Virus record (IMG/VR): IMGVR_UViG_3300021185_002760
Location: 1-39,053 of that record
Source: a virus
Reading direction: 5' to 3' (one strand)
Length of the DNA stretch: 39,053 nt
A program made the translations under genes and the position numbers. The stretch's first letter is position 1. The number at the start of each line of letters is the position of its first letter. Shown here piece after piece: positions 164 to 28,700 of this stretch. The notes beneath the pieces are model-generated. The model made no database searches. It had not been told where the DNA came from and saw only the letters and a list, made by a program, of their open reading frames with translations.

Positions 164-710
164 ACCATCTTTCCGGTTGCATAGGATCGATACTTAATTC
201 ATTGATATTAAAATGCGCAGGCTGATCAACAATCCATTTAATGTAGCTCGCAGCTACATTTATATCCATAGTTTTTCTATCAGGATGCTTTTCTTGATTA
301 TTACTTAATGTGCCAAAACTAATATACGAGATTTTTGGTCCACTTGCCCATACACCAGTAAGTCCTAAAGTGTTTGAATAGTCACGTAATGCTTTCTTTT
401 CGGCGTTGTATAACCAAGCACCGCCTTTTTTAACACGATCAGTAGTACTACCTATGTTAATAATATGACAGTTATGTTTTTCTAATATACATTTTTTATA
501 CACAATATCTAATAGACTTGTTTGATTAAATCTAAACAATGCACTACAATTAATAAAAACATCATGCGCTAGTACTGCTTCTGCACAGCGTTCCATATCT
601 AACTTTTTGCCAAAGTCATAGCCAGTACTTCTACTAATAAATTCTGCTTCTGGATATAGTTTATAAAGTGCAGCCGAAACGCCTACATCCTTGTTACCTG
701 TTATAATCAT
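156..710 (-). CDS. Short-chain dehydrogenase/reductase (SDR) family protein
   Basis: A 184-residue Rossmann-type protein. It opens with a beta strand and TGNKDVG loop (residues 4-10) at the place of the SDR nucleotide-binding TGxxxGxG. Ser88 (in INIGS), Tyr101 and Lys105 (YNAEK) match the SDR catalytic triad, with the usual 13-residue Ser-Tyr spacing. An NCS motif (54-56) sits where the family has NNAG, and the C-terminal strand before DPM resembles the end of many SDRs. It is short compared with the usual 240-280 residues. It probably oxidises or reduces a hydroxyl or keto group using NAD(P); the substrate is unknown. ATG at 710 follows AAGGA, and the gene overlaps the upstream PP-loop gene by 17 bases, so translation is likely coupled. 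Confidence 0.8.
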   Translation of the reverse strand: MIITGNKDVGVSAALYKLYPEAEFISRSTGYDFGKKLDMERCAEAVLAHDVFINCSALFRFNQTSLLDIVYKKCILEKHNCHIINIGSTTDRVKKGGAWLYNAEKKALRDYSNTLGLTGVWASGPKISYISFGTLSNNQEKHPDRKTMDINVAASYIKWIVDQPAHFNINELSIDPMQPERWYE

Positions 711-1524
711 TTATTTCCTTTATTATATTTACTACACGTTTATTTGCCCAGGCACGTTCTTCGCACCACCAGCATTGTTTGCATTCTGGTATAAACATTC
801 CGGCACTATAATCCTTAAAATGTCCGCAGGCTTCTTTTATTACATCGTGATGATTGATATCGCCTTCACAACTGCGTGTTGTTTCATACAAATCTAGTAT
901 ATTGTGTATGTAATACTGTGCAACAATCCAATCCTTTTTTACAAATCTAAAAGGATGCACAAATGTAGCATTTACTTTGCCGCTGTAAAACCACAAGTCA
1001 GACATTGTGCCATCCTCAGCATCTCTGTCTCTATTAGTCATACGATCTTCACGCAAGTCATCTGGGTTTTTACTAGTAGCATTGTATACTGCATCTAAGT
1101 TGTATTCCCATGCAGAAAATTTGTTAAAACTACCAACAATAATTTGATCTCCGCTGCGTCCGTTAATTACAGGACCAATAACTCCGTGTTCTAATTCTGG
1201 CGGAATGTATGTTGTATACCTGTTTTCAATAATGTAAGGAAACAAGTCTTTTAATTTGTTAAAAACTTGCATAGAAATATGGCCTTGCCACGGTCTTGTT
1301 TCCCAACAACGTTGATATGTGATAACATCTACTTTTGTAGGCAAATTATATCTTTGTATCATACTACAAAGTAAGTATGTCAATAATGCACTATCAGCAC
1401 CGCCGGAAAGATTAATGCCAATGCGTTGCCATTTTTCATCTAAAGGAATACTTAGATGCGACACAGTATGAAGCAAAATATTGTCAGCAATATTTTTATA
1501 TAGACTATTGTTTACTTCATACAT
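694..1524 (-). CDS. PP-loop ATP pyrophosphatase, QueC-like (copy 1)
   Basis: 276 residues. The PP-loop SGGADS lies at residues 40-45 and is the ATP-binding loop of adenylating enzymes such as QueC, asparagine synthetase and tRNA thiolases. Near the C-terminus there is RSCEGD (Cys219) and then Cys248, Cys251 and Cys254 (CxxCxxC), which matches the four-cysteine zinc site of QueC (7-cyano-7-deazaguanine synthase). The middle of the protein differs from true QueC, and no FolE, QueD or standard QueE is present, so the substrate may well be different. It probably activates a carboxylate or carbonyl by adenylation for attack by ammonia or a similar nucleophile. It overlaps the upstream radical SAM gene by 8 bases. 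The pair is repeated at 2842-5080. Confidence 0.82.
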   Translation of the reverse strand: MYEVNNSLYKNIADNILLHTVSHLSIPLDEKWQRIGINLSGGADSALLTYLLCSMIQRYNLPTKVDVITYQRCWETRPWQGHISMQVFNKLKDLFPYIIENRYTTYIPPELEHGVIGPVINGRSGDQIIVGSFNKFSAWEYNLDAVYNATSKNPDDLREDRMTNRDRDAEDGTMSDLWFYSGKVNATFVHPFRFVKKDWIVAQYYIHNILDLYETTRSCEGDINHHDVIKEACGHFKDYSAGMFIPECKQCWWCEERAWANKRVVNIIKEINDYNR

Positions 1525-2845
1525 TATATACTAATTCTCCATCAACAAATTGAAATCGTTGTATGTGATCATTAAAATTTTGATTCCATAGCTTATCTGA
1601 TTTTGGAATATACTTTAATAGTGCTTGATAGTCTTTGTTTGACGATTGATGATTCATCACGTATTCTCTTACTTCCTCAATAGCTTGTAGAGCACTAGTA
1701 ATGTCAGTCCACCATCCATAATTAATTTCTTCGTCCCATACATAGTTATACATTTCTTTGGTAGTAAGAATATTTCTCCTACGTTCTTTGTCTATTTTAA
1801 TTACAGCATTCCTTGCATTTTCAATTTCATTTAGTGTTGGACCTCTATACTTTAACATCATTACACTAGGATTTAAATAAGCAGGTGTATACACAATACT
1901 ACAATTTATATAATCTAGTTCTAATGACAAAAATCCACTCATTACATCTTCAAATTCCATAAGCTGATATACACCAGTAGTACACACTAAATTAATATGA
2001 CTATGTTTATTGTCAACTGCTTTAAATTTTTCAATGTTTTCTTTTAGTTTATTCCAGTCACCTTGTCTAAAGTAAGGATACAAGCGAGGGCCAGCATCTA
2101 CACTTATCATTATATTACAATAACCAAATTTTTTCAAGAGAAAACTTAGTGCTTCTGGATCAAAATCGGCATTAAAATTACTGTGGAATATGATTTTGAT
2201 ATTTTTAGCGTTTGGATGTTCTGATAATTTTTCTAGTGTAGGCAAAAATTGTTTTTGGTATAGTACTTCCCCGCCAGCAAAATCAATACGTTCCAAGTTA
2301 GGAAAGTTTTTGTTTAAATCTTCAGCAATTTCCAATGAACGTTTTGTACTAATTTGCATTGTAAAATCATCGTCCTCTGATGATCTATGCATACGTCCTG
2401 TAAGCTGATGCAATTGGTGTTTGTGATCTTCTTCATCCGGTGTATAGTCTTTGAGTTTTTTTAGCCACCCACTGCTAAACACTACACTGCAATGCAAACA
2501 AGCCATGTTGCAACTATGACTAAAACGTATTTCTACTGTTTTTAATCCTTTGAAATCAACCTCGCCGGTTTTTGCATTATAATATTCTAAGTCAGCTTCT
2601 TGTTCTTGCCGCATACTAGTGCCGCTTTTATCACGTTCTACATGCTCGCACATGTCGCAACCAAAACTCCATTTGCCACTCATCATTTCTAATCTATGTT
2701 TGCGAAATTGTTCGTTATTGTAAAACTCACTAGGCAACCATGCTTCGTCAAGCACTTGCATTTTTTCATGCTGCTGCGGACAACTGGTAATAAACCCGTT
2801 CTTAAAATTTAGACCGCCTATAGTGTAATAACAAGGTAAGCTCAT
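1517..2845 (-). CDS. Radical SAM protein with N-terminal cysteine cluster
   Basis: 442 residues. The radical SAM cluster motif is Cys112-x3-Cys116-x2-Cys119, and GGE (191-193) matches the SAM-binding GGE(P) of the family. An N-terminal region carries Cys5, Cys22, Cys63 and Cys66, likely ligands of an auxiliary cluster in an unusual N-terminal position; proteins of this form are often called twitch-domain radical SAM proteins in phages. The enzyme should cleave S-adenosylmethionine to a 5'-deoxyadenosyl radical; the substrate is unknown. ATG at 2845 has a good GGAG site 7 bases upstream and overlaps the upstream PP-loop stop as ATGA. It is paired with the PP-loop gene that follows (694-1524). 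Confidence 0.88.
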   Translation of the reverse strand: MSLPCYYTIGGLNFKNGFITSCPQQHEKMQVLDEAWLPSEFYNNEQFRKHRLEMMSGKWSFGCDMCEHVERDKSGTSMRQEQEADLEYYNAKTGEVDFKGLKTVEIRFSHSCNMACLHCSVVFSSGWLKKLKDYTPDEEDHKHQLHQLTGRMHRSSEDDDFTMQISTKRSLEIAEDLNKNFPNLERIDFAGGEVLYQKQFLPTLEKLSEHPNAKNIKIIFHSNFNADFDPEALSFLLKKFGYCNIMISVDAGPRLYPYFRQGDWNKLKENIEKFKAVDNKHSHINLVCTTGVYQLMEFEDVMSGFLSLELDYINCSIVYTPAYLNPSVMMLKYRGPTLNEIENARNAVIKIDKERRRNILTTKEMYNYVWDEEINYGWWTDITSALQAIEEVREYVMNHQSSNKDYQALLKYIPKSDKLWNQNFNDHIQRFQFVDGELVYNV

Positions 2846-3690
2846 AGATTCTCCAATAAAAATCCATTACAATTATCTAGTCCCCATTTCTTTTCTTGGC
2901 AAAAGAAACAATGACCACATTCGGGCGGATACTGTCTATTGCGTCTGTATTCTTCGCCAAATTCTGCAATATCACCTTCGCAACTACGAGTAAGTTTTAA
3001 CAAGTCCCATTGATCATAATTATGATACTGCGCCATTGTATAATTTTTTCTAAGTAAACCAAAAGGATTTATAGCCGGGCCACTAATTGCCCAATCCCAG
3101 TTGTCTTTCATAAATTCTTCATTTCGAAAGGTAGGTTCGTCATCAGTAGCAAATGGAGGATTCATTGTTATGCCTGTGTATATTAAATCTATATTATATC
3201 TGTACATAACGTATTCTTGAAAATCTAATGTACACAATACATCACAGTTTGCTTCTCTTGGTAGTTTTGTAAATAAATGTTCTTTGCCTAAACGTGTAAG
3301 AGGAACATCTTCAAACTCCGGAGGCAAAAATCCCCATATCTGTTCTTGTATAATATCTGGAAAACGTGCCTTTAGATAATTGTATACATCTTCTGCCATA
3401 GGAGCAAGCCAAGGTTTTTCTTTCCAAAAGCGTACTAGTGTCATACAATAGATCTTATTGTTGTAATTATTCTTTTCTATATAATCACACAACATATAAG
3501 TTAGTATGCTGCTATCAGCACCACCACTTAAACTAACAAGTAAGTTTTTTGCATTAGGATCAAAATGAACAGGCAACCCGTTTATCCTATGAATTTCCGG
3601 ATAAGGTCTAAAGATCATTTCGTAAGTTTTTATAAACTGTTCATCTTTGTACCCTGCTTCTAAATAATCTAAATAATGCTTATCGTCCAT
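2842..3690 (-). CDS. PP-loop ATP pyrophosphatase, QueC-like (copy 2)
   Basis: 282 residues from the ATG at 3690. A TTG one codon upstream (3693) is in frame, but the ATG is preferred. SGGADS is at residues 55-60. Zinc-type cysteines are Cys237 (again within RSCEGD), Cys258, Cys261 and Cys264, the same arrangement as copy 1. The identical RSCEGD and the common spacing show that the two PP-loop genes are paralogs, although the middle parts differ clearly, so they probably use different substrates or act at successive steps. The gene overlaps the end of the upstream radical SAM gene by 11 bases and the next radical SAM gene by 4, so it is an inner member of the leftward operon. Confidence 0.82.
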   Translation of the reverse strand: MDDKHYLDYLEAGYKDEQFIKTYEMIFRPYPEIHRINGLPVHFDPNAKNLLVSLSGGADSSILTYMLCDYIEKNNYNNKIYCMTLVRFWKEKPWLAPMAEDVYNYLKARFPDIIQEQIWGFLPPEFEDVPLTRLGKEHLFTKLPREANCDVLCTLDFQEYVMYRYNIDLIYTGITMNPPFATDDEPTFRNEEFMKDNWDWAISGPAINPFGLLRKNYTMAQYHNYDQWDLLKLTRSCEGDIAEFGEEYRRNRQYPPECGHCFFCQEKKWGLDNCNGFLLENL

Positions 3691-5080
3691 CAAATATGTC
3701 TTTCATTTCAGGAAATACTTCGGCAAAACTGTTTCCTCGTTGTGTATCACATCTATGTAAAAATTCTTGCATCTCTGGCAAACGTCTGCTCCAATCTTCA
3801 CTTTCCATAAAACTCAACATTCCTTTAAGACGTTTAATACCATACGGAGCGGCATCAAACATTTCTTTTGTAATTTTACCTTTATGCCAACTAGGAACAC
3901 CTAGTTCCCAGTTTTCTTCCCACCATGGATAGAACTCTTCATACTTTTTACGTACTTCTGCTTTGAACCATTCTGGCAGCACTTTAACATTCAAGTGCGG
4001 AGGATGATATACAAAGTGATAGTTTATACCGCCTGCGCCAAAAGGCCACATGTTGATCTTTTTAAATCCTTGCTCTAACTTCCACTTGATAAAATCTGGT
4101 ATGTAGTATATGTTTAATGCTTGTACTGCACATGCTACAGTTATTTCTACATTGTTGCTAGTTTCATTATCTAGTATGTGAAATACTTCTTCTTGGCGTT
4201 TCCATTCACTTGGATAACGAATGTAATCATTCATTTCTTCGATGCTGTCTATCGAATAGTGGAAGCGCACCAGTTTGAATTCTCGCCATAGATCAAATAA
4301 ATCTTCTCTCCATTCAACTCCATTACTGTTATAACGCAGTTCAAGATTTTTTGCATAACCCATTTTAATCGCATGTTCAAGTATTTCATAATGTTCCTCA
4401 ATAATAAGACTTTCACCGCCGGCAAAGTATATTTGTTGCATACTGGGCATTTGTTCATAAAACTGATCCCAGAACACAGGATTTTGTTTATGCCAGTTGT
4501 AGCTACTGCCGTTTGTACTGCCTTTGTCTTGCCACTGCATTGTTTCTTTGAGTGACTCATTCTTAACACCCGGGAAGATTGCCTTGTAATCTTTGATCCA
4601 ACCACTACTATCGTGTGGTGAACACATTACACATGCCAACTGACACTTGGTGCCGAAGCGTAAGTCAATGTATGCCAAGTTAGGAGGCACTTCGCCGTCT
4701 TCTGTTGTATCGGCTATCAGTTTATCAACATCGGTACGCTGACTCCAGTATGCAGTTTCCCACATACGTTTGCTATTATGTCCAGCAGCTTCTTCTCTAT
4801 AACACTTCAAACAACTAGGAGGCTTTTCACCGTTCATCATTTGCTTGCGTACATTTTTCATGTATTCACTATTCCAAGCAGTTTGAAAATCAGTCACGTT
4901 TAAGTTGTTTGGCTTTCCGTCATCTGTTTTAAGAATACCAACTTGTCCGCCATGTTCTTTGTCGTTTGTAGGGCCAACACTACTAGCATTGGCAGTGCAG
5001 CACACTCTCATACTACCATCTGGTCTTGTGCTTAGATGCACCCAAGGAAGGATGCAAAATGTATCGCTTACTTTGCTCAT
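3680..5080 (-). CDS. Radical SAM protein with N-terminal cysteine cluster
   Basis: 466 residues. The catalytic motif is Cys146-x3-Cys150-x2-Cys153, and GGE lies at 221-223 after an IYFA strand. The N-terminal region has Cys9, a PDG turn, Cys27-Cys28, and Cys90/Cys93 (CLKC), probably binding an auxiliary iron-sulfur cluster. The first 30 residues closely resemble the fragment at 1-163. The C-terminal region is rich in aromatic residues and may hold the substrate-binding part. ATG at 5080 has only a weak AGG ahead of it, and a 42-base gap (5081-5122) separates it from the upstream gene. This is the only real gap in the left operon; no convincing promoter was seen in it. It heads the first radical SAM/PP-loop pair. 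Confidence 0.9.
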   Translation of the reverse strand: MSKVSDTFCILPWVHLSTRPDGSMRVCCTANASSVGPTNDKEHGGQVGILKTDDGKPNNLNVTDFQTAWNSEYMKNVRKQMMNGEKPPSCLKCYREEAAGHNSKRMWETAYWSQRTDVDKLIADTTEDGEVPPNLAYIDLRFGTKCQLACVMCSPHDSSGWIKDYKAIFPGVKNESLKETMQWQDKGSTNGSSYNWHKQNPVFWDQFYEQMPSMQQIYFAGGESLIIEEHYEILEHAIKMGYAKNLELRYNSNGVEWREDLFDLWREFKLVRFHYSIDSIEEMNDYIRYPSEWKRQEEVFHILDNETSNNVEITVACAVQALNIYYIPDFIKWKLEQGFKKINMWPFGAGGINYHFVYHPPHLNVKVLPEWFKAEVRKKYEEFYPWWEENWELGVPSWHKGKITKEMFDAAPYGIKRLKGMLSFMESEDWSRRLPEMQEFLHRCDTQRGNSFAEVFPEMKDIFDGR

Positions 5081-5122: not shown

Positions 5123-6193
5123 TTACTTACGTGTTTCGTTTGTCTCAATGTAATACAATTCATTATGATATGCTTTATTTTTTGCACAAGTTTTAATACA
5201 TCTTGTCAAATGTAAAGGATGTCCCGGTGTCCAACTTGCTTCCAATAATTTTTGATACCAACTATGATTTAATATTTCTTCTAAACTGTTATAATTTAAA
5301 TTATTCCAGCCTTTGTCAAAATAATTTAATTTATCGATTATCTTTTCAGAATTTTTAAAAAAACTATCCCATAAAAAACAACAAGGCCATACACTTAAAT
5401 CGTTAGCAATAAAAATTTCTTGTTCGTGTATGTACTTGCATGTAATACTGCTTACAATTTCTGTTACTTTGTTTTTATCAGTTTGTTGTTTTTTTGTTTT
5501 GTACTCTAGAATAAATTTATCTAATTCTTTTGCAATTTCTTTTTGTTTGTGTTCTTTAGTACCAGTTGTAGTAATTATTTTTGTTTCTTTTAAATTTTTC
5601 TTTCCTATTTCCGATAGCCATTGATGATAACTATTACGCATTCCTGTTCTAGTTGCAAAGTCAAAACCTAATACAGCAGCGTGAGCCCTAGCTGTAACTA
5701 AATCTTTTTCATTGTGATCAAACTCAATAAAAACCCATGTTGCATGTTTTTCAGGTGCAGTTTCTGCAAATGATAAAATATTACGTTCTACTACATTCCA
5801 CTTAGTGTTTACACGATATATATGATTGGTTTCTCTGTGCCCGTCTATGCAAAAATGCACATGTAATTTTCCTAAATACTTTGTAGCAAGTTCGCCTAGC
5901 TGTTTCCACCATGCTGCGGTATTATATCCGCCGTTGGTACTATATTCACAGTATGCACCTTGACTAAGAAGGTATTCTGTCATGGCTAGACAATCAGGAT
6001 TGGTAATAGGATCTCCAAGCACACCACAAAACTTGAACTCTACTCCATTGTAATCTGCAGGTGGAAATATTCTCTGCAGATCTTGCAGTGAAAAACTGTT
6101 TATTCTCAGCAAATCACTATTAAGTGTTCTAGCACAACCCGGACAAGCTGCATTACAATCACTGGTAATTTCTAATTCTACTTTTTTAATCAT
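5123..6193 (-). CDS. Radical SAM protein with C-terminal SPASM-like cysteines
   Basis: 356 residues. The catalytic motif comes right at the N-terminus: Cys13-x3-Cys17-x2-Cys20. Instead of GGEP there is CGVLGDP (56-62), a motif also present in the neighbouring paralog. The C-terminal part (about residues 250-335) carries a further Cys, a Cys-Cys pair in a WPCC context and a CxxxC, consistent with a SPASM-like auxiliary cluster. Enzymes with this domain modify peptides or sugars, but no substrate can be named. ATG at 6193 overlaps the upstream stop as ATGA, with GGAG 10 bases upstream. It is a paralog of 6190-7269, with which it probably works. Confidence 0.87.
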   Translation of the reverse strand: MIKKVELEITSDCNAACPGCARTLNSDLLRINSFSLQDLQRIFPPADYNGVEFKFCGVLGDPITNPDCLAMTEYLLSQGAYCEYSTNGGYNTAAWWKQLGELATKYLGKLHVHFCIDGHRETNHIYRVNTKWNVVERNILSFAETAPEKHATWVFIEFDHNEKDLVTARAHAAVLGFDFATRTGMRNSYHQWLSEIGKKNLKETKIITTTGTKEHKQKEIAKELDKFILEYKTKKQQTDKNKVTEIVSSITCKYIHEQEIFIANDLSVWPCCFLWDSFFKNSEKIIDKLNYFDKGWNNLNYNSLEEILNHSWYQKLLEASWTPGHPLHLTRCIKTCAKNKAYHNELYYIETNETRK

Positions 6194-7269
6194 TTGAATT
6201 GTGCTCCAAACGGATCAAACTCTTTTCCGCACTTCATACTACATACTTTTAATTTGCCATCGGCACAACTCGATTTATTCCAACTGTTTTCGATATCATC
6301 AAAGATACCTGTATCAAACACTGCACGTAGACCATGTTTTTTTGCACTGACTGCATCTTTGCCGCCCACAGCATCGATAAAGTCCCATACTTGTTCTTGC
6401 TTAGGATCTTTGTGCCACCATTTGTACATACGCCCAGCAGTCCAACAACACGGCATAGCAAGTCCTTCGGCTGTGATAAACAAATTGCCTTCGTCTTTTA
6501 CTTTACAATGTATTTCTGCACGATCATAATATGCGTCCATACTGCCATGCTTGTCTTTGACTTTGTCGTATTGTTTAATTGCATCATTTTGATATTTTTC
6601 ATCAGGCTTTTTAAGTTTAGCAGTTTCCTTACCTTTGCGATTTATTGCTTGGTGAGATTCTTTCTTTTTACTTTGTGCTGTTACAAATCGGCCTGTTTTC
6701 TTTTTAATAAATCTTTCGCAGCCCCAAGTATTTGCAAGTGCTTCTGCTTCTTCAACTTGATGTTGATTGTGTTCAAAGATTAAAAAGTCCCAACGTGCTC
6801 TACCACCTGCGTCTATGAACGCTCGCATGTTGCGTTCTACATTATCCCATACAACTCCTTGGCGATATAAATGATTAGTGTCACGCAAACCATCCACACT
6901 AAATATGACGGCACCCATCCTTCCAAAAACTTCAGCCAGCTGTCCCCACCATTCTTCATTTTTTGCTCCTGCATTTGTATTCATACTCAGCCACATTTTT
7001 TCATTATGCTGTCTAAAGTATTTGAATATTTCTAGTGTATCTCGTGCTACAATAGGGTCGCCTAAGTTGCCGCACATATACATAGTGTTTAGTTGTGCAA
7101 TAAACTCCGGTTCAAAGATACGTTTACAATCGTCTAATGTAAGTTCACTCAAATCAATGTGTGGATTTAATGCTCCGCCATTTTGATTGCGATCACACAT
7201 AGGGCAACTGGCTTGACAGTTTTGTGTGTTTTCTAAATGTATTGTTTTTATATTTTCGTACTTATACAT
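6190..7269 (-). CDS. Radical SAM protein with C-terminal SPASM-like cysteines
   Basis: 359 residues. The catalytic motif is Cys18-x3-Cys22-x2-Cys25, followed by CGNLGDP (66-72) in place of GGEP. C-terminal cysteines (a single Cys and a Cys-Cys pair at about residues 250-280, and four more between about 331 and 350) suggest one or two auxiliary iron-sulfur clusters of SPASM type. It has the same overall plan as 5123-6193. A lysine-rich segment around residues 200-230 is a likely linker. ATG at 7269 overlaps the small upstream gene by 8 bases. Function beyond radical chemistry is unknown. Confidence 0.87.
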   Translation of the reverse strand: MYKYENIKTIHLENTQNCQASCPMCDRNQNGGALNPHIDLSELTLDDCKRIFEPEFIAQLNTMYMCGNLGDPIVARDTLEIFKYFRQHNEKMWLSMNTNAGAKNEEWWGQLAEVFGRMGAVIFSVDGLRDTNHLYRQGVVWDNVERNMRAFIDAGGRARWDFLIFEHNQHQVEEAEALANTWGCERFIKKKTGRFVTAQSKKKESHQAINRKGKETAKLKKPDEKYQNDAIKQYDKVKDKHGSMDAYYDRAEIHCKVKDEGNLFITAEGLAMPCCWTAGRMYKWWHKDPKQEQVWDFIDAVGGKDAVSAKKHGLRAVFDTGIFDDIENSWNKSSCADGKLKVCSMKCGKEFDPFGAQFK

Positions 7270-7486
7270 CCATTATCAACTTTACATCTTTACCAGGACC
7301 AACCTTACTGGGCAAGTCGCCATATTGTTCAACATACCATTCAATAACAGCCTTGTACCAGTTTTGACTGTTGTGATGTGCTAGTTTATTAAACTGCCAA
7401 ATATTATTATTGGTTGCTTGTATTGTACTTAAAGCTCTAGCACTTTCAGTTTGCATTTCTCGTAGTGTTAAATTACTTATATCCAA
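7262..7486 (-). CDS. Small protein of unknown function (74 aa)
   Basis: A 74-codon reading frame starting with TTG at 7486, with GAGG about 10 bases upstream. An internal ATG (codon 11) is the alternative start. It overlaps the methyltransferase gene by 14 bases and the radical SAM gene by 8, as expected for a real operon member. The protein is predicted mostly helical, rich in Asn, Gln and Trp/Tyr in the middle (WQFNKLAHHNSQNWYKAV), with a Gly/Pro-containing tail. No signal peptide, membrane segment or cysteine is present. It is not recognised. It could be a small partner of the radical SAM enzymes or, less likely, a peptide substrate. Confidence 0.62.
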   Translation of the reverse strand: MDISNLTLREMQTESARALSTIQATNNNIWQFNKLAHHNSQNWYKAVIEWYVEQYGDLPSKVGPGKDVKLIMDV

Positions 7487-8513
7487 TTTTCATAAACCTC
7501 GTGTATTTTTCTAATTCTAGTTCGCCTTCATATAATACAGTTGACATTGGCGCACTTTTACTAAATTGTTTTAATGTACTAAAACAGTTAACATGCTCTG
7601 GAACTTCAAAATAATTGTTATTTTGTAATATTACTAATTGCTTTGGTAAAATTTTACCATACCAATCATCAAAGTCTTCCAAATGTTCTGTACTTGTGTT
7701 TATAATTGTATCTGGAATAGTCCATAATGTTTCAGTAGTACCATCTGATTTATTTACATCATATATATGTTCGTCAAACATTATTTCATGAATATCTTGT
7801 GTACATGCTTTAAAACGCCAATCGTCTAGCACCCATTTTTTATTAAATGTTTCTGCAATTTTCCATACACTAGGATCTATATCAAAACTAACAATTCTTT
7901 CTACATTAGTTTTTGATTCAAATAGCATTGTTGCTAATGTAGCATACCATCCTGCACATAAAAATACTACACCTAAATCAACATTTATTTCTTCTAATGT
8001 GTTTACTAACCAAAGTTTACTTTTTATTTGTCCTTGACTTAAACAATCTTCATCAAAATCAATATCATTTGTAATTAAATCCTTTAATGATTTTACAAAA
8101 TAACTATCTGTATAACGTGTTAGAATTTTAAACAAACTCCAAATATTATCATCAAAAATAAGTTTTTTTAAATCATCTTCGCCAACAAGTCTAAATACAC
8201 TAAAAACATTATCTTCACAAACTGCTTTACGCAAATCGTCATTGCCGGGTAATAATCTAAATAGACTATGGATATTATCTTCTAATACTGCTTTACGCAA
8301 ATCTTCTATATCGCCTACACAACGCTTATTATCGATTATTCTAAAAATACTATGAGAACTTTTGCTTACAATCGCCTTAGCAAGTTCTTTTTTATCTAGC
8401 AATGTTAAAATAGAATAGATGTCTTTATCGTTATAACACCTTCTTAATAATTCAAGTTTTTTATTATTAGAATTTAAAATTTCAAATCTATCTAGTATTT
8501 TAAATATTTCCAT
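7473..8513 (-). CDS. Helical-repeat / class I methyltransferase fusion
   Basis: 346 residues in two parts. Residues 21-131 hold five repeats of about 18 residues of the pattern DLRKAVxEDNxxSLFRLL, at 21-39, 43-60, 71-88, 93-110 and 114-131, likely paired helices. From about residue 165 the protein looks like a class I SAM-dependent methyltransferase: strand and turn FLCAGWYATLA (184-194) at motif I, SFDIDP (209-214) with an acidic residue after strand 2, and DTIINTSTEHLED (268-280) at motif IV. The substrate is unknown. ATG at 8513 follows AGAGG and overlaps the upstream glycosyltransferase gene by 14 bases. The repeats may mediate protein contacts. Confidence 0.68.
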   Translation of the reverse strand: MEIFKILDRFEILNSNNKKLELLRRCYNDKDIYSILTLLDKKELAKAIVSKSSHSIFRIIDNKRCVGDIEDLRKAVLEDNIHSLFRLLPGNDDLRKAVCEDNVFSVFRLVGEDDLKKLIFDDNIWSLFKILTRYTDSYFVKSLKDLITNDIDFDEDCLSQGQIKSKLWLVNTLEEINVDLGVVFLCAGWYATLATMLFESKTNVERIVSFDIDPSVWKIAETFNKKWVLDDWRFKACTQDIHEIMFDEHIYDVNKSDGTTETLWTIPDTIINTSTEHLEDFDDWYGKILPKQLVILQNNNYFEVPEHVNCFSTLKQFSKSAPMSTVLYEGELELEKYTRFMKIGYK

Positions 8514-9534
8514 TAAACTTTTCCTCTAACCAGTCAAAGTCATTTATCATTTTTAATTCTTCTACTTTATTTCGATTTCTAGCACCGTATGCAGCACCTG
8601 CTTTTGCACCTTTTAAAGCATATTCGCCAAACTCGGGCTCGCCTTTTAAATAAGTACACCAAATACGCAACCTATCGTTGGTTTCGTTATCTTTTTGCCT
8701 ATCAATAATCTTACTACTCAATTTTACGCATTCACGGAATGCACTTTTCCATGTGTTAAACGGATCTGTATTAAATGCTGTAATATTTGATATTTTCTTC
8801 ATTGCTACAAACTTACTACTGATACTTGTTGTCATATCAGGTTTGCTTGTATCCATTGTAAGTGTTAGTTCGGTAGGAAATAGTTTTATACCTCCGTATC
8901 CGTACACCAACCCATTGATAGGATTTTCACTACGCCAGACATGTACTGCTTCTTTATTGTGATGCTCTGGCATATAATCAAATTTAAAATAATCCGTAAT
9001 CTGTGCATCGCCGTCTATAATCCAAAACATTTCTGTTTTACATAAACTTGCTGCGGCAATATGTGCTTCGTGAATACCTTTAACACCGTGTATACGTTTT
9101 ACATCTGGAAAACGTTCTAGTATATGCTCGTAATTTTCGTCAGCATTTGGTTCATTATAACTGATAAAAACTTTATCAAATTCTATAGCAATTGGTTTAC
9201 TTGCTTGCACTTCTACAAACTTTTTGTTTACATAAAATCTTGCTTTTAATTCACCAGGACCGTGGTGACTGTTTTTAGGCATTAGCGCAATACCATCGTA
9301 AAATTCACCATTTAAAAAAACATGTGTATTGTCTTGACTATGCTCATCTGGTATATAGTCAAATTCAAAATCACTGTCTACTACGAGATCATCATACACA
9401 ATCCAAACAAATTTAGTTAAACATTTTTGTTTTGCTTCAGGCACCGTGCTGGCAAATTTTGCCATAGGAACATTTCTCTTTAATCTTTTAAAATTGCTCC
9501 ACGAAGGGTCGCCAATAAAATAAACATCATACAT
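8500..9534 (-). CDS. GT-A type glycosyltransferase-like protein with internal duplication
   Basis: 344 residues from ATG 9534. A longer open frame reaches 9696, but it would cross the promoter and enter the opposite-strand gene, and the stretch before MYDVYFIG has no similarity to the paralog. The second half resembles the protein at 14052-14975: ISYNEPNADEN (124-134), VKGIHEAHIAAA (151-162), an acidic DGD (174-176) typical of metal/nucleotide-sugar binding in GT-A enzymes, and a shared C-terminal part. The first half looks like a degenerate copy of the same fold, with YDD (47-49) in place of DGD and a similar FDYIPDEH / FDYMPEHH segment. It is the first gene of the leftward operon. The donor and acceptor are unknown. 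Confidence 0.72.
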   Translation of the reverse strand: MYDVYFIGDPSWSNFKRLKRNVPMAKFASTVPEAKQKCLTKFVWIVYDDLVVDSDFEFDYIPDEHSQDNTHVFLNGEFYDGIALMPKNSHHGPGELKARFYVNKKFVEVQASKPIAIEFDKVFISYNEPNADENYEHILERFPDVKRIHGVKGIHEAHIAAASLCKTEMFWIIDGDAQITDYFKFDYMPEHHNKEAVHVWRSENPINGLVYGYGGIKLFPTELTLTMDTSKPDMTTSISSKFVAMKKISNITAFNTDPFNTWKSAFRECVKLSSKIIDRQKDNETNDRLRIWCTYLKGEPEFGEYALKGAKAGAAYGARNRNKVEELKMINDFDWLEEKFNGNI

Positions 9535-9540
9535 ACTATA

Positions 9541-9569
9541 ATTATATGATAACTTAACTTTAAAGTCAA
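9541..9569 (-). promoter_or_regulatory. Sigma70-type promoter of the left operon
   Basis: On the minus strand TTGACT (9564-9569) and TATAAT (9541-9546) are separated by exactly 17 bases, a near-perfect host-type promoter. It reads left into the glycosyltransferase gene. The predicted transcription start falls at about 9534, on or next to the ATG, and no ribosome-binding site precedes that ATG, so the mRNA could be leaderless. Confidence 0.85.
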
Positions 9570-9579
9570 GAACAGAATA

Positions 9580-9587
9580 GATAAATA
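9580..9587 (+). promoter_or_regulatory. T4-like late promoter, GATAAATA
   Basis: GATAAATA fits the NATAAATA late-promoter type of T4-like cyanophages. It lies 17 bases before the ATG of the plus-strand fibre-like gene, and a CGGAGGA ribosome site (9594-9600) lies between. The same octamer precedes two minus-strand structural genes at 21189-21196 and 25732-25739. Confidence 0.75.
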
Positions 9588-9604
9588 ATGTAGCGGAGGA
9601 CAAC

Positions 9605-11065
9605 ATGGCGGATTTTATACCAGGTGAAGCATATAGACTAGATATTATCGGGGCCGATGAATCTATTATTGTAGATAGTTGGCAAGGAACTATCAAAGCA
9701 AATGTAGTATCGGATATCGGTATGGTACAGGTTGATGTATCAACAGGAAAACTTTATGGACCTATGATAGGTGACATTGAAGATACTGAAGGTAATATAA
9801 TTTTTGACGCAACTGCGCAAACGTTAAAAGCTGATTTATCCGGAAGTGTTTATGATAATAGCGGTGCTGTAAAAATCATTGACGGTATGACTGGTAAAAT
9901 TACCGGCCTACTAAGTGGCAATGTAGTTGACTCCGAAGGCACTGTAATGATAGATACTGCTAGTCGAACTATTTCCGCAAATAGTTTTACAGGCGACTTA
10001 TACGGCGATGTATATGGTAATTTAACTACTGAGAGTATTGTTTACGGTACATTTAGTGGTGACTTTAACGGTACTGCATATGGCGAATTCTTTGGCGATA
10101 GTACAGGTACACACAACGGAGATGTAAACGGCGACTTAGTTGGTAATGTCACTGGTAATGTTTTAGGTAGTGTCACAGGTGAATTACTTGCACTAAAGAA
10201 CGGCAGCGAAATTCCAGATCAGCTTACAGCATGGAATGAATTTCACCAACAATGGGAATGGGTAGGCGGTGTCGGCGATCTTTCTGCAGTTGAAGAAGGC
10301 GATATTGCTAGAGGTCCTGTAATTTTAACAAACGCTGACAGAGCACAAACTGCTCTAAGAGCAAACGTAACACACTACAATGGTACTGAAATTATTAAAT
10401 TACACACCGACGAACTAGACCCAGATTGTCCTACTGCACCAGCAACTATTAGAGGGTTGTTTGATGGTAATTTTATACATTTAGATGACGACGGTGTTGC
10501 ACATACTGTATTAAGTGCAGATACTATTGGTGGTAGTGTTATACATCCAGTAAATGGAAAACTTAATATTGGTATGCACAACGATCCTGTTGAGGATATT
10601 CAAATCAATGCAAGTAATTTTACGATAGAATCAAAACTAACACGTCTAGATACAGCCGGTGTTGAAATTAAAACTCATACGTACAGAGGCGATGTTGATG
10701 CAAAACAAGCAGTGCGTGATGAAGATTTAATTGGTGGGTTTCACGTTCATGCATATAACGGAAACGAAATGGTTGTTGCCGGTGGTATGGGATTCACTGT
10801 TGCAGGTGATGTAAGCAATACTGGAATTGGTGTACCTTCGAGATTTGTAGTAGGAACATCAACTAATACACATAAATTTCATCCAAACAACGAACACCAA
10901 CTTGAGTTCTGTAATGGAGTACTTACTGTGCCTGTAATGCAAGCAGATCCAATGAATTACGTTGAAAGAGATGCAATGTCAGCCGAAGCTGGAATGATTA
11001 TTTTTAACAGCGGTAGTAATACATTTCAAGGATTTAATGGCACTTCTTGGGTTGACCTACACTAA
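9605..11065 (+). CDS. Fibre-like virion protein with glycine repeats
   Basis: 486 residues. Residues about 15-200 consist of short beta-type repeats, ending in a run of five- to eight-residue units of the form GD(L/V)xG (TGDLYGDVYGNL, NGDVNGDLVGNVTG), as in beta-helical or trimeric fibre shafts. The C-terminus ends in a segment of the form MIIFNS...FQGFNGTSWVDL, a motif known at the ends of T4-like cyanophage fibre and structural proteins. The late promoter and strong ribosome site upstream agree with a virion role. The gene sits alone on the plus strand among accessory genes, away from the other structural genes, so it may be an exchangeable receptor-binding fibre. Which fibre it is cannot be said. 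Confidence 0.72.
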   Translation: MADFIPGEAYRLDIIGADESIIVDSWQGTIKANVVSDIGMVQVDVSTGKLYGPMIGDIEDTEGNIIFDATAQTLKADLSGSVYDNSGAVKIIDGMTGKITGLLSGNVVDSEGTVMIDTASRTISANSFTGDLYGDVYGNLTTESIVYGTFSGDFNGTAYGEFFGDSTGTHNGDVNGDLVGNVTGNVLGSVTGELLALKNGSEIPDQLTAWNEFHQQWEWVGGVGDLSAVEEGDIARGPVILTNADRAQTALRANVTHYNGTEIIKLHTDELDPDCPTAPATIRGLFDGNFIHLDDDGVAHTVLSADTIGGSVIHPVNGKLNIGMHNDPVEDIQINASNFTIESKLTRLDTAGVEIKTHTYRGDVDAKQAVRDEDLIGGFHVHAYNGNEMVVAGGMGFTVAGDVSNTGIGVPSRFVVGTSTNTHKFHPNNEHQLEFCNGVLTVPVMQADPMNYVERDAMSAEAGMIIFNSGSNTFQGFNGTSWVDLH

Positions 11066-11106: not shown

Positions 11107-12096
11107 ATGATCTACATTGACGGAATCAAGTATCTTGAAAGTGATAACGAACACGTAAGAACAGCAGTTATTAATTATTTGGAAAACTGGAATATTACAG
11201 TAAGTACAAGCGGCACTACCGGAACTCCAAAAGTTTATACACACTCAGATAAACTTATGCGTAAAGTAGCAGAATATAATGCTGAATACTTTATGCTTGA
11301 TTCAAACAGCAGCATGATGTCTTTGTACAATCCAAGAGGAATTGGATTTACAAGTATGAGTTTGTATCCTTGTGCAGTTGCAAATTGCGATACGTTTATC
11401 GAAACTACAGTTGCAAATCTTCCAGATCGTATTGCAGAGGTACAACCAACTAATATGCTTATACTACCTAATGTTTGGAAAACTTGGCATAGACATAAAA
11501 AATGGAAAAACTTAGATCTTAGCTGTATGAAACAAATGCAAGTAGGCAGTGATATTACACCAACAGGATTAATGGAAGACTTGAGAGAAAGAGGCGCTCA
11601 ACAGGTAAACACAGGCTACGGCAGCACAGAAGTTCCTCCTGTTATTATGAGCACAGAACGACAAGATATATACAAGTTTAGCGATATTAATCCTAACATT
11701 GATTTTAAATTTGTAAAACACGATGACGGTAGCACAGAGTTTTATTGCAAATACAAAGAACAAGATCAATGGTGGGATAGCGGCGATCTTGTAGAATTTA
11801 ATAGTGCTGATGAATTTAGATTATCAGGACGTAGATACAATGCATTTAAAATGGAAAACTGCGGTGATAGAGTTTATCCAGAACAGATTGAAAAAGTTGC
11901 TATTGAAAATGGTGCAAGTTTAGCACTGTGTCGAAAAGTTGCACACGAATGTGTTGTGTACTACACAGGCGAACTGGATGTATCAAACTTTACTAAACAA
12001 CACAAATGCGCATACGATATTAAACCAGTTAAAGTAGATGAAATTAAAGTAGACGATAATCTGCGTAAAATTAGTAGGAATCAACAATTTGTATAG
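11107..12096 (+). CDS. Miniature AMP-forming acyl-adenylate ligase (ANL superfamily)
   Basis: 329 residues with almost the full set of ANL motifs: STSGTTGTPK (33-42, the ATP phosphate loop), GYGSTE (170-175), DSGD (224-227, ribose-binding Asp), GRRYNAFKMENCGDRV (241-256, hinge) followed by YPEQIE, and LRKISR (319-324) with Lys321 at the place of the catalytic C-terminal lysine. The family is usually 500-600 residues; here the N-terminal part before the phosphate loop is nearly absent and the C-terminal domain is short. It should activate a carboxylic acid with ATP to acyl-AMP, then pass it to CoA, a carrier or an amine. No carrier protein is visible. The next gene overlaps it by 8 bases and may be the acyl acceptor enzyme. 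Confidence 0.88.
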   Translation: MIYIDGIKYLESDNEHVRTAVINYLENWNITVSTSGTTGTPKVYTHSDKLMRKVAEYNAEYFMLDSNSSMMSLYNPRGIGFTSMSLYPCAVANCDTFIETTVANLPDRIAEVQPTNMLILPNVWKTWHRHKKWKNLDLSCMKQMQVGSDITPTGLMEDLRERGAQQVNTGYGSTEVPPVIMSTERQDIYKFSDINPNIDFKFVKHDDGSTEFYCKYKEQDQWWDSGDLVEFNSADEFRLSGRRYNAFKMENCGDRVYPEQIEKVAIENGASLALCRKVAHECVVYYTGELDVSNFTKQHKCAYDIKPVKVDEIKVDDNLRKISRNQQFV

Positions 12097-12682
12097 ATTT
12101 GAAGCATACGACGGCACACAAGATCTCTCACAATGGTTTGAAGATGCAGAAAAGCACGGGTACTACAACAACAGTAGTAAAGCCATGCTAATTGACTATA
12201 TTGCAAAATACGAAGATGCTACATTATTTTTACTTTATTATAACGATAAAATTGTAGGAAACAGTATTGTACATAGTTTAAAAGGCTTAGGTATCCTTGG
12301 TAAAAACGCATACCGAATAGGTGCAAGAACTTGTTTAATTCGCGACCATATTGATGGCAATAGAGTGTATGCGCCAAGAGCGTGGGGTCCTATTAATCAT
12401 CACACACTACAAATGTTGTTTCCAGTTTGTATCGAACATGTTGGCAGAGATAAACCTGTATATATTAGTACCCACGAAGGTGGTGTAGGAAGTCAAGATC
12501 GTGTGCATAAAATATGGACTAAAAAGTTTACAAACAAATTAGGAATCACAAAAGATCCAATTGAGCTAGAGTACAAAGGCACATTCCAAACGTTTTATCG
12601 TATCGACGTAGAAAGACTTTATGAACTACTAGAGGATTCACGCTGGCCCGAAGCCGAAGAAGCTATTCCGTTGTTTAGTTAA
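12089..12682 (+). CDS. Possible GNAT-like acyltransferase
   Basis: 197 residues beginning with TTG at 12089, with AGGA about 10 bases upstream; no better start is present. It overlaps the ligase gene by 8 bases, so the two are probably translated together. Residues 45-75 form strand-turn-strand (LFLLYYNDKIVGNSIVHSL), a pattern common in GNAT-fold N-acyltransferases, and the middle contains GARTCLIRD and a histidine-rich PINHHTLQML segment. No clear acetyl-CoA loop (Q/RxxGxG/A) is seen, so the assignment is tentative and rests partly on the neighbouring acyl-adenylate ligase. The stop overlaps the stop of the opposing radical SAM gene within TTAA. Confidence 0.45.
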   Translation: MYRFEAYDGTQDLSQWFEDAEKHGYYNNSSKAMLIDYIAKYEDATLFLLYYNDKIVGNSIVHSLKGLGILGKNAYRIGARTCLIRDHIDGNRVYAPRAWGPINHHTLQMLFPVCIEHVGRDKPVYISTHEGGVGSQDRVHKIWTKKFTNKLGITKDPIELEYKGTFQTFYRIDVERLYELLEDSRWPEAEEAIPLFS

Positions 12683-14052
12683 ACGTACTTCTTACAAAGT
12701 TCAAAAAAGTCTGACATCTCCGGAAACACTTGTTCGTGATCAACATTACGTCTACGCCCTTGTTCTTCAAAGAAGTTGTGGAAGTCTCTACGTCCTTGAA
12801 TAACTTTATCTAGTGGATATTCTGTAGACTCCATGTAATCAACCACACGACGAAACTTTTCATACTCGATAGTGCTAAATGCATCCTTGCGATTATCATC
12901 TGTGTTCTCTTTGATAAACTGCAAATGGTCGTGCATATAACTCATGTAGTTTTTGGGCAGGATATTGATATCATACTGTAGCGGTTCTTTGAGATGCGGA
13001 GTATCAAACCCCAATCGTTGCCATCTGTGCGTTTCTACGTCATTGTATTTTTTACGCCATTCAAGAATCTTTTCAAGCAATGTACGGAATGTAGTGACAC
13101 TGAAAATATTAAATGTAATCATAATAACCATTGGTGCTTCACAGTTGCGCATAAAGTAATCTAAGTTGCGTTCAAACACTTCAATGTCTAACCCATCACG
13201 AATATACTCTGCACGTTTGCCCCAAGTGTCAATACTTGTAAACATTTTAAAACGTCTAATCTTGTTGTTTGTCAACAAGTCATTCACACGGTTTGTAAAC
13301 TTTTCCAACTGCTTTGGCTTGCCACCTAAGTTGCTGTTGCAGTTTAGTTCTAACTTTGGTTTAGGATCTGCATCCAGCATATCAAACAACTTGTATGTGC
13401 TTTGTTGTATTGTAGGCTCACCGCCTGTAATACGCAAAATATGCAAGTCCTTACTAAGCTCTGGCCACCATTTCCAAAATGCATCTAAATACGGATTGCT
13501 TTGTTCTTCAAATATTTCAAACCAGTCAATATCGCATCTGTGATTCTTTACGTTTGTATAAGGACCGTGTTGCTTGATCTCTTGATGATATCTACTGCTG
13601 GCTTTTGGATGACAATATCCACAACGGAAGTTGCACTCATTACCAAACGAAACTTCCAAGTATTCTGGATTAACATCAAACTCAGCACCGCCTTCTTTGA
13701 CAGCTTTCAAGCGTTCTTTGAAAAAGATAGTTTGGTTGCGTTGTTTTCTATCACTAACATAGTCTTTGCCCATTGCTTCAATCTTCCAGCAATAGTTGCA
13801 TCCACTAGGTTGTTCACCTTTCATCATAGCAGCACGTTCTGCTTTCTTTTGTGCTGTGTTGTGTATAGCACTAGGATTCTCTAATAGCGGTGCTGCGTCA
13901 ATCTTGTGAGGAGCAGGATGATAACAACTATGTGTTTCGCCTGTCTGGAAATAGATATTTGCATGATACCATTTTGCAAAACAAAACGTAGGAGATATTT
14001 CCTGCGTAATCTTATCGATACGCTTGATTTCTTCGCTTTCGCTGCGTTCCAT
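12679..14052 (-). CDS. Radical SAM protein with N-terminal cysteine cluster
   Basis: 457 residues. The catalytic motif is Cys140-x3-Cys144-x2-Cys147 (CNFRCGYC), with GGEP at 210-213. N-terminal Cys24, Cys43, Cys85 and Cys88 (GCNYC) match the layout of the radical SAM proteins at 1517-2845 and 3680-5080, so an auxiliary cluster is likely. It is the last gene of the operon that starts near 17530 and lies directly after a GT-A glycosyltransferase (TAATG overlap at 14052). This suggests a radical modification of a sugar or of the glycosylated product. It converges with the plus-strand island; the two stop codons share TTAA. Confidence 0.9.
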   Translation of the reverse strand: MERSESEEIKRIDKITQEISPTFCFAKWYHANIYFQTGETHSCYHPAPHKIDAAPLLENPSAIHNTAQKKAERAAMMKGEQPSGCNYCWKIEAMGKDYVSDRKQRNQTIFFKERLKAVKEGGAEFDVNPEYLEVSFGNECNFRCGYCHPKASSRYHQEIKQHGPYTNVKNHRCDIDWFEIFEEQSNPYLDAFWKWWPELSKDLHILRITGGEPTIQQSTYKLFDMLDADPKPKLELNCNSNLGGKPKQLEKFTNRVNDLLTNNKIRRFKMFTSIDTWGKRAEYIRDGLDIEVFERNLDYFMRNCEAPMVIMITFNIFSVTTFRTLLEKILEWRKKYNDVETHRWQRLGFDTPHLKEPLQYDINILPKNYMSYMHDHLQFIKENTDDNRKDAFSTIEYEKFRRVVDYMESTEYPLDKVIQGRRDFHNFFEEQGRRRNVDHEQVFPEMSDFFELCKKYV

Positions 14053-25731: not shown

Positions 25732-25739
25732 TATTTATC
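25732..25739 (-). promoter_or_regulatory. T4-like late promoter, GATAAATA
   Basis: GATAAATA on the minus strand, 24 bases before the ATG of the 200-aa gene. The TAA inside the octamer (25735-25737) is the stop codon of the giant structural gene, so promoter and stop overlap. It should serve the 200-, 673- and 628-aa genes. Confidence 0.8.
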
Positions 25740-28700
25740 GTGGTAGCGATATTGTTTTGTCTGTTATAAATTTGCATATTTGATTTTCGCTATCTGCAAT
25801 TGTTTTGCCTTGTTCTGACCAAACTCTGCCTGTTTTTCTTACAACTTCAACTAAAGTTCCATCTGCAGGGGGATTAAGATAATCTGCAAGATAAATTGCT
25901 GTCACTGTAGCTTCACCAAATATAATGGTTTCCATTGTATATTCAGGTGCAATTGTAATATCGCCTTCTGGTGAGTCTTGATCTTTTGTAGGATCAAACG
26001 ATGTTATTACATCTTTGCGTAATTTTATACCGCCTAAATAAACATCAAATTCATTAACGCTAGTAGGTATCCAATCTAACAAGAATTGTTTTGTACTACT
26101 ATCACCTACATATTTTGTTTTATATATTTCATCTTTGTAAGGAATATTTTCTTCTATGCCTTGTCCGATTACTTTTGTATTCACAGCGTATGTTTCTTTA
26201 ATACCTGTGCCTAATGTACCTCTACGAATTTGACGTAGCTGGTTGTTGTCAACCGCAAAATACTCAATACGCTCTTTGTCAATATAAACTACACCCGGTA
26301 AACCAATTGCTCTGTTTGGAGATTGAATACCTGTTGCATCTTTTAATTGAATTGTTTGATCATAGTAATTTAATGGCTGCTGTAATTCATACTCGTTGTC
26401 TTTGTTAAGACGCTTGTAATGGAATCTATTGAGCATATCTTTAAATATTCTATATCCAAATTTTGGCTTACTAACAGGTGCTGCAAATTGTAGTACATCA
26501 ATTGTATCATTTGGATCAACCTTTTCATACATTTGAACTCCGTCTTTTTTATCTACAATCTTATAATCTTTTTGTGGTACAAGTATAATGCCATTTTTAA
26601 ACACCCAAACATAATTTGCACTTATTGCAGGTTTTTGTAATTTTACATATCCAGTACTCAACAAGTTTTTATCAATATATTCTTGTGTTCCTTCTGGTGC
26701 TTGGTTAGTATTCCAAACTACATCATAACTGTTTCTTTCAAGTTCATTTATATCGTGATTACTAAATGTATAGATATCTACTGTTTCCCAATCTTCAGGA
26801 GTTTCTAGTAAACAAAGAACATCTGTTTCTTGTAATCTAACTTCTTCAATTTCTAAATTCTGTGTGCTGTCGTCTCCTGCAATCATTGCAGGTGTAGAAT
26901 CAGTACTCTTTAAATCAAATAAATCTCTTACATAGCCTTGAAGTTCAATTATAGCATCATTTTCGCCGCTGTATTTAAAACTTTCAACTCTTGCATTTAC
27001 AACTGTACTATCGTCAGTTAGTGCAAATGCTACATCTGTACCTTGAGGAATTTGTGCAAGAGCACTACCTCCTTTGACAACTGCTATTGTATTAAAGAAG
27101 AAATATTCAGCATCTCTAATTATGAAAATTTCTAGTAAATCTCCTGGCAAACCGATATTATTGGATAGTATTTCTACACGGCCATTCAGTGGATCATAAT
27201 TCCATAATGTTTCTGCTAAGACTTCTCCATTTAGGTATATTACAACATCGCTACTATTCACTAGTGTTGTGTCTTCAAACTGCCAAGCATCGATATCATA
27301 ATCACGTTGTATAGTCATTATGTAAGATTTTCTATACCCTGGATTTAAGAATTTACTTCCTTTAGAACGCTGTACAAGTATGTTATGCGAGTATGGTTTT
27401 TTAACAAACGGTAAAGCAACATCATTATCAAATCTATGAACACGATTGTCGCCGTCTACAGTCATTGTTTTATCAATTACCATTTCGCTAAATTGATTTA
27501 TGTTTGCACTATAAACAGTATACCCAATTACAGTATTTGCACTTGGTGCAGTAGGAAATTCAATTACACCAAAACCAGCATCATTTGTATCATAACCATA
27601 CTGTGTGGCTGGTTCTTGTTTCACACCGTTTAGTGTGACAAATGTACTTTGTTCTGTTGTAAATCTAATAGGTAATTCAAAAGTTCTTGAATTACCTGTT
27701 GATATAATATTATCACTATCGATAATATCAACACCGTTAGTTCCTATACTTAAAATACTAAGATTCTTGCCAGCTTCTATTACTGTACTATCACCTAATG
27801 CAATGTATTTGTTTTCATAATCTACTACTAGGTCGCTGTTTGGAATTACCTCACCATCTATGGTCACTATAATTGTTTTTTCAGTCTGTGGAAATAAGTC
27901 AAAATTCCAGTTTAGTGTATTTCCGTCTGTAATATAATTCCTTACAGCAATAATACCCTGACCTTGGCTAACTCTATTATATATTGTCATATCTAATGTG
28001 TCAAGTACTTGTCCTGGAACTTGTTCTTCTGGACCTTTTGATGTTGTTTCTGTGACAAATCCATCGCCGTCAACAGTAATTTCTGCCGGATCGATACCAA
28101 GTGCCGAAGTATTTTCAAATGTACCGCCTCTTAAACTTACATCAAATGCTGTGCTTTCTGGAGTAAACGATCCGTCACTTGTGCTCTTACGCACTATAAC
28201 AACATCGTCCATTTGCGTTGTAATCACATCGCTATCTAAGAAAACATTCTTTGTAATACCATCACCTACAGGCGATACCATCTTAGCATTTGGATTTGTG
28301 CCAGGTAGAGGATAACTAGGATCATCTATTCTTACATTGTTTAAGTATACGTTATAAACAACTCCGGCTTCTAATTCTGTGGATAGACTTACAGTTTGTG
28401 TACTACCATCTAAAACAATAATTTCATCTTCGTTAGCAGTATCATATGAATCAAAGTCTACGCCAAAACCTTGTAGGTCCCAACCTAGGCTTTCACCAAA
28501 GTCAATACTATCCATTTGCACACCACTGTAATCAATGCCATCCATAAGTTGTGCTAAGTCTTTGCCTGGCATACCTGTAGTCGGATTGTAGAAGAAATTA
28601 ATTCTGTCTGCTGCTGTAAGTAAGTCTGTAGACTTTTTATAATTAATTACAACTTCTGCATTGTTTGCTGGTGCTGTTGTAAAAGAAATTTTACCTTTGT

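Follow-up and report, generated by a model that had tools for sequence, protein, structure and literature searches.

A putative two-enzyme module of a radical SAM protein and a QueC-like PP-loop protein in radical SAM arrays of T4-like phages

What might a virus do with two consecutive pairs of radical S-adenosylmethionine (SAM) and PP-loop genes? The question is raised by IMG/VR virus record IMGVR_UViG_3300021185_002760, a 39-kb stretch of DNA (39,053 nucleotides, analyzed whole and called the window hereafter), the minus strand of which carries, between positions 694 and 5080 and in the order rSb-PPb-rSa-PPa, two radical SAM genes each followed by a gene for a PP-loop ATP pyrophosphatase. 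A preliminary description of the window, made from its sequence and without database searches, had reported these four genes as two pairs in the same order and proposed that they are repeats of one two-step module, resembling but distinct from the QueE-QueC steps of preQ0 synthesis, for a modified base, sugar or metabolite. The four open reading frames (ORFs) were confirmed, namely rSb (3680-5080; 466 aa), PPb (2842-3693; 283 aa, with a TTG start in the ORF list), rSa (1517-2845; 442 aa) and PPa (694-1524; 276 aa), adjacent frames overlapping by 4-14 nt. The explanation that we favor, to which we assign a probability of about 45%, is that rSa and PPa form a two-step module within an accessory island near the tail-fiber genes, likely making an unusual surface-glycan decoration of the virion or of the host.

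Coupling of rSa with PPa

When all fetched loci were pooled, 109 of the 111 rSa genes (31 of 33 nonredundant) either preceded a same-strand PP gene or were fused with one; this count is biased upward because many of the pooled loci had been found through the PP protein. A search seeded with rSb, and thus independent of PP, yielded the same rSa-PP pattern. The two rSa genes that depart from it (L049 and L055) are on contigs that binning assigned to bacteria or archaea. In six viral contigs, moreover, rSa and PPa are encoded as a single ORF of 827-843 aa (e.g., L181:8556-11039 and L236:4240-6738), in which the radical SAM domain spans residues ~1-441 and the PP domain residues ~577-842. The five distinct sequences among them are 48-96% identical and conserved independently, making an assembly error unlikely. 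That rSa and PPa probably act jointly is argued most strongly by the fusion, which, together with the conservation of the pair in other contigs, bears out the functional coupling proposed in the preliminary description.

The general proximity of PP genes to radical SAM genes is less telling. Radical SAM genes, on average 6.2 of them, lay within 6 kb of PP in all 47 nonredundant loci, and PP directly adjoined one of them in 41 of the 47, where the density of the arrays would predict 33.6 (p=0.0035); a radical SAM gene upstream of PP was not more common than expected (25 versus 24.8). Because the arrays are dense, adjacency alone is weak evidence, and the case rests on the rSa-specific linkage and on the fusion. 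The same two features bear on whether the genes are merely unrelated cassettes gathered in a hypervariable host-recognition region, their pairings reflecting shared transfer and not one pathway. The gene content of the arrays varies widely between contigs, PPb and other genes come and go, and the hypervariability of such regions is already documented (PMC7029224); the rSa-PPa pair is, in contrast, nearly invariant and fused in six contigs, and both enzymes retain all catalytic residues. We consider this explanation unlikely for rSa-PPa, while it could apply to rSb-PPb and to the genes at the edges of the array.

The second pair behaves differently. With all fetched loci pooled, a PP gene came after rSb in 77 of 167 (13 of 52 nonredundant). 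PPb was absent from 12 of 38 relatives, one of which retains a 91-aa remnant, and had diverged, with a broken SGG, in three. In L034, L038 and L043, PPb has SSGADS in place of SGGADS and rSa is only 190 aa long, PPa being intact. PPa and PPb are sister clades in the tree (support 100/100) whereas in the radical SAM tree rSa does not group with rSb as a sister; one pair is therefore not a copy of the other. An origin by tandem duplication was rejected on these grounds, and with it the idea of one repeated module. Judging from these trees and counts, the rSb-PPb pair appears to be lineage-specific, and rSa-PPa the real module. A second architecture was seen in L242-L291, where PP leads a radical SAM operon, divergent from a ~223-aa protein reading as an AspH-like 2-oxoglutarate (2OG) oxygenase.

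The PP-loop proteins and the preQ0 question

PPa and PPb share SGGADS, RSCEGD and CxxCxxC (CKQCWWC in PPa, CGHCFFC in PPb), as the preliminary description had noted, and SGGADS recurs in nearly all relatives. An alignment of 34 relatives showed S39, G41, S44, K196, Y203, T215, S217 and four cysteines to be invariant, and a signature, CxxC[WF][WF]CxE[RK]xW, extends from phage to bacterial members. Pfam matches of the PP proteins to PP-loop/QueC were weak, and PF06508 matches in relatives weak and partial. Alignment with QueC from Alphaproteobacteria using hhalign covered the C-terminal half, including the zinc site, with which the four-cysteine SC...CxxCxxC pattern of the PP proteins aligns. 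In a PDB fold search, the AlphaFold2 model of PPa (mean pLDDT 92.8) retrieved Cap9 (9nto; E 1e-6, TMq 0.44) as its best match, followed by TtuA, NcsA, TilS and LarE, and its best matches among viral predicted structures (BFVD) were proteins annotated as QueC. The structural check thus placed PPa nearest to Cap9 in the PDB and to QueC among viruses. Neither of the outcomes that would have spoken against a new system was observed, be it a pair not conserved elsewhere or a full alignment with QueC combined with a complete preQ0 pathway beyond the window.

Using the QueC motif framework of PMC13329287, we screened 72 PP relatives (56 phage, 16 bacterial) against 12 ordinary QueC proteins found in the same way. 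The canonical QueC motifs YxQxHxxE, VPxRN and YPDC were each found in none of the 72 relatives, compared to 12/12, 10/12 and 12/12 of the controls, respectively. Similarities to QueC (PF06508) are the PP-loop fold, SGGxDS, a four-cysteine zinc-type site near the C-terminus and a PF(x)4K-like stretch. The PP proteins differ from it in a longer and variable spacing between the first and second cysteines, the strict C(x)8CxxCxxC spacing of QueC not being seen in them, in their twitch-domain radical SAM partner and in the CxxC[WF][WF]CxE[RK]xW signature. From sequence and the fold model, the PP family appears to form its own branch among proteins built on the QueC scaffold, and its substrate pocket probably differs from that of QueC.

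Other repurposed relatives of QueC were distinguished in the same screen. Cap9, of type IV cyclic oligonucleotide-based antiphage signaling systems (CBASS), shares CE..CxxCxxC with 56 of 56 and PF(x)4K with 52 of 56 phage PP members (3/16 and 9/16 among bacterial members), but its substrate-pocket motif YxDC occurs in none of the 72 relatives, and the PP proteins are ~90 residues longer and coupled to radical SAM enzymes. No cGAS/DncV-like nucleotidyltransferase (CD-NTase) appeared near PP in general Pfam scans, one of them giving the top 25 families and none being a search aimed at CD-NTase. The QatC zinc variant C(x)19CGxCxxRR was likewise found in 0/72. The WbpG/PseA sugar amidotransferases (PF06508 cluster 5) are comparable as PP-loop enzymes in a surface-sugar context, yet neither of their motifs (SGGxDSxY, CxxC(x)6CxC) was found in any of the 72.

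TtuA, NcsA and LarE, sulfur transferases with a three-cysteine [4Fe-4S] site at the active center, rank just below Cap9 among the PDB folds and raise the alternative of sulfur insertion, whereby the PP enzyme would be a thiolase adenylating its target and the radical SAM partners would perform C-S chemistry. The four invariant cysteines could be accommodated by such a reaction, but their arrangement in PPa matches the QueC zinc site instead, and neither a sulfur carrier nor a desulfurase was noticed among recurrent neighbors. We regard sulfur insertion as distinctly unlikely.

Could the locus nonetheless serve a 7-deazaguanine-type base modification, by the preQ0 route or a variant of it, with PPa or PPb as QueC and a radical SAM protein as QueE? 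The scaffold and zinc site would suit this role, and QueC enzymes are common in phages (PMC9301287). The preliminary description had reported FolE and QueD to be absent; FolE is indeed missing from the window but is present in 7 of 26 related records, whereas QueD/PTPS scored above cut-off in 0 of the 26 and in 1 of 14 larger records; all these records may be incomplete, and hosts could supply the enzymes. QueE, furthermore, is a short radical SAM enzyme without an auxiliary cluster, about half the length of rSa and rSb (442-466 aa), which have four extra invariant cysteines, as had been noticed earlier, and QueE was not within the top 50 folds for the rSb model; for these reasons rSa and rSb are not considered to be QueE. 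The preQ0 pathway was rejected as a candidate on the missing QueC motifs and the near-absence of QueD, and, even with hosts that could provide intermediates, preQ0 synthesis is very unlikely. The modified DNA base entertained in the preliminary description finds no direct support either: besides these two absences, the array adjoins tail-fiber genes and glycosyltransferase-like, SGNH and amidinotransferase genes.

The radical SAM array and what it may make

Both radical SAM proteins of the two pairs matched NCBIfam NF033640 (N_Twi_rSAM; curated cut-off 170 bits) over nearly their full length, rSb with 426 bits (E=1.1e-127) and rSa with 186 bits (E=1.2e-54), as well as Pfam Radical_SAM. The name of this N-terminal-twitch family implies no reaction, and rSa is a divergent member of it that differs in being fused to a PP-loop domain in relatives. 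The N-terminal cysteine site inferred earlier was found in both proteins: C5, C22, C63 and C66 of rSa (38 alignment rows) and C9, C27, C90 and C93 of rSb (71 rows) are invariant, as is the CxxxCxxC core of each, making seven invariant cysteines in rSa, so that both enzymes look catalytically intact. The fold model of rSb (pLDDT 85.7) had weak similarity to solved structures, of which the ribosomally synthesized and post-translationally modified peptide (RiPP) maturase SkfB was the nearest, followed by viperin and anSME, with SuiB also among the nearest.

As an amendment to the preliminary description, the pairs belong to a longer array, of which rSb is the most conserved gene. In the window, and all on the minus strand, the array further comprises rSc (5123-6193; Pfam Radical_SAM and SPASM sub-threshold, TIGR04317 weak), rSd (6190-7269; Pfam Radical_SAM, 31.3 bits), both with conserved synteny, and rSe (12679-14052; Pfam Radical_SAM 24.1 bits, below cut-off; phrog_14086, E=1.6e-10). 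Twenty-six related contigs had 6-20 PF04055 matches each (median 10), with more radical SAM genes in relatives past the extent of the window, and the array adjoins tail-fiber and tail-collar genes. Recurrent partners include 33 distinct SGNH hydrolase-like proteins, two families reading as 2OG oxygenases by sequence motifs (43 and 26 loci), and, by reading, amidinotransferase-, short-chain dehydrogenase/reductase (SDR)- and GNAT-like proteins; those identified by Pfam are a nitroreductase, FkbM methyltransferase, AsnB-like amidotransferase, APS kinase, UDP-glucose dehydrogenase and UDP-GlcNAc epimerase. The SGNH/GDSL hydrolase-like proteins are scattered among the radical SAM genes, up to five per 20 kb (e.g., L003:18157-18843). 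The predicted gene content of the array looks like that of a pathway leading to a decorated small molecule or glycan, and its tail-fiber location fits host recognition; for a similar region in T4-like phages from the sea, changes to surface glycans have been argued for (PMC7029224).

QueC and Cap9 perform an established chemistry in which ATP-dependent adenylation is followed by attack of an amine or ammonia (PMC13329287, PMC13279940). By analogy, rSa would first remodel a substrate by radical chemistry, making or exposing a carboxyl or amide group, and its product would be the substrate of PPa; PPa, as a zinc-site ligase on the QueC scaffold, would then adenylate this carboxylate or amide using ATP and join the adenylated group to ammonia or an amine, yielding an amide, amidine, nitrile or conjugate. 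PPb may perform a second, lineage-specific acylation step and rSb may be a core radical SAM enzyme of the same array, which as a whole (6-20 radical SAM genes with SGNH, 2OG-oxygenase, amidinotransferase, nitroreductase, SDR, methyltransferase and glycosyltransferase-like genes) would constitute an accessory biosynthetic island. That the end product is a glycan or other surface component is our guess.

Several observations weigh against this proposal. TilS aligns over the N-terminal half of the PP proteins with an hhalign score similar to that of QueC; the similarity of PPa to Cap9 is modest (TM 0.44), TtuA, NcsA, TilS and LarE being about as close; PPa is kept in L034, L038 and L043 though rSa is reduced there to 190 aa; the glycosyltransferase labels of window proteins were given by eye, without family matches; and the nearest, albeit weak, fold of the radical SAM model is the peptide-modifying SkfB, which favors a peptide or protein target. 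Because both fold searches lead to protein-modifying enzymes, such a target is quite possible. The main rival explanation accordingly has the radical SAM enzymes alter residues of a peptide or tail protein in a RiPP-like manner, and the PP enzyme cap or ligate its terminus as does Cap9 when it attaches 7-carboxy-7-deazaguanine to an N-terminal glycine. The RiPP maturases SkfB and SuiB among the radical SAM folds, the retention of PF(x)4K and CE..CxxCxxC in phage PP members, the frequent AspH-like 2OG oxygenases nearby and the adjoining tail-fiber genes would all be consistent with it. On the other hand, the radical SAM fold scores are weak, the deazaguanine-pocket motif YxDC of Cap9 is missing, and the SGNH, amidinotransferase, nitroreductase and sugar-nucleotide genes better fit a small molecule or glycan. 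Nor was a precursor-like peptide seen, in the course of work that included no systematic precursor search: the sole small conserved neighbor examined, o74 (7262-7486, minus strand; 74 aa, TTG start), was rejected as a RiPP precursor because it is uniformly conserved across relatives, without a variable core. On balance we deem protein modification less likely, and prefer the rSa-PPa module acting on a small molecule or glycan.

Four further genes in the window lie on the minus strand, on both sides of those described. A short SDR-like protein (156-710; SDR matches weak) overlaps the end of PPa and is found near PPa in most relatives. Upstream of rSd, relatives strongly conserve o74 in its place between o346 and rSd; it has no family match. 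The conserved array protein o346 (7473-8513) had no family match above cut-off, and o398 (8500-9696), which resembles o307 and is glycosyltransferase-like by sequence (unconfirmed), had no family match; both are syntenic in relatives. Positions 11107-12682, within the array, encode a small, complete-looking AMP-binding (ANL) ligase, then a GNAT-like protein on the opposite strand. Finally, a frame of ~4,400 aa at 25735-39051, open at the window end, encodes a virion structural protein (phrog_10938) with CBM5/12 chitin-binding and FG-GAP matches.

Phage context, distribution and significance

One relative encodes a T4-type major head protein, a portal and a baseplate wedge, its head protein being 65-69% identical to those of jumbo phages, and the giant virion protein of the window is ~29% identical to those of PA5oct-type phages. 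On this evidence the relatives appear to be large, little-studied T4-superfamily phages related to jumbo T4-like phages. A pelagimyophage (SAR11) origin, first suggested by the layout, is not supported because the closest matches of the capsid and of the giant virion protein come from jumbo T4-superfamily phages such as Phosso, Vibrio phage 2.275.O, GAP32 and PA5oct. Pelagimyophages and T4-like phages do offer a likeness in their many radical SAM genes in a region of tail-fiber and glycosyltransferase genes: the consulted portions of the two reports describe radical SAM cassettes in pelagimyophage host-recognition clusters (PMC7029224) and a T4-like environmental genome with 12 radical SAM genes (PMC5332604). 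These portions mention only cassettes or counts, without a PP-loop partner, and the capsid here, in contrast, is nearest to the jumbo T4 superfamily.

At least 479 viral relatives of the PP proteins are present in one collection, and rSb has 208 viral relatives. No PP relative was found in 50,697 records of cultured phages, among which rSb had relatives in two Vibrio phages only, at 22% identity. One cultured Vibrio phage, K566 (255 kb), has three clustered radical SAM genes 22% identical to rSb (L080:14971-19373) and is a possible laboratory model. Genomes of bacteria and archaea rarely contain the family (16 loci). Its bacterial members are mainly in Bdellovibrionia, where 7 of 144 genomes have it, and it was found in 1 of 385 genomes of Alphaproteobacteria. 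It is not exclusive to phages, since some members lie within radical SAM arrays on contigs of 0.35-0.94 Mb. In two Bdellovibrionia genomes (L054:7578-11281 and L063:3083-6780), PP stands beside APS kinase, PAPS-reductase-type genes and a sulfotransferase-like protein, neighbors that suggest sulfation of the product.

Radical SAM-rich T4-like phages were thus known before, and the portions consulted of the published reports assign no function to their arrays; the QueC-scaffold partner and the fusion appear to be new. In the open-access literature, subscription papers being outside the scope, we found neither a radical SAM/QueC fusion nor a QueC-scaffold partner. We tentatively suggest, at less than even odds, that rSa-PP represents a new bifunctional class, combining radical SAM chemistry with subsequent ATP-dependent acylation on a QueC scaffold, that occurs in jumbo-type T4-like phages and some bacteria and catalyzes a modification without known counterpart. 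QueC has already been repurposed for defense against phages in Cap9 and QatC, and the PP family would be a further such branch, on the side of the virus and tied to radical SAM enzymes. Through the natural rSa-PP fusion, the role of phage radical SAM arrays could be approached on one tractable protein.

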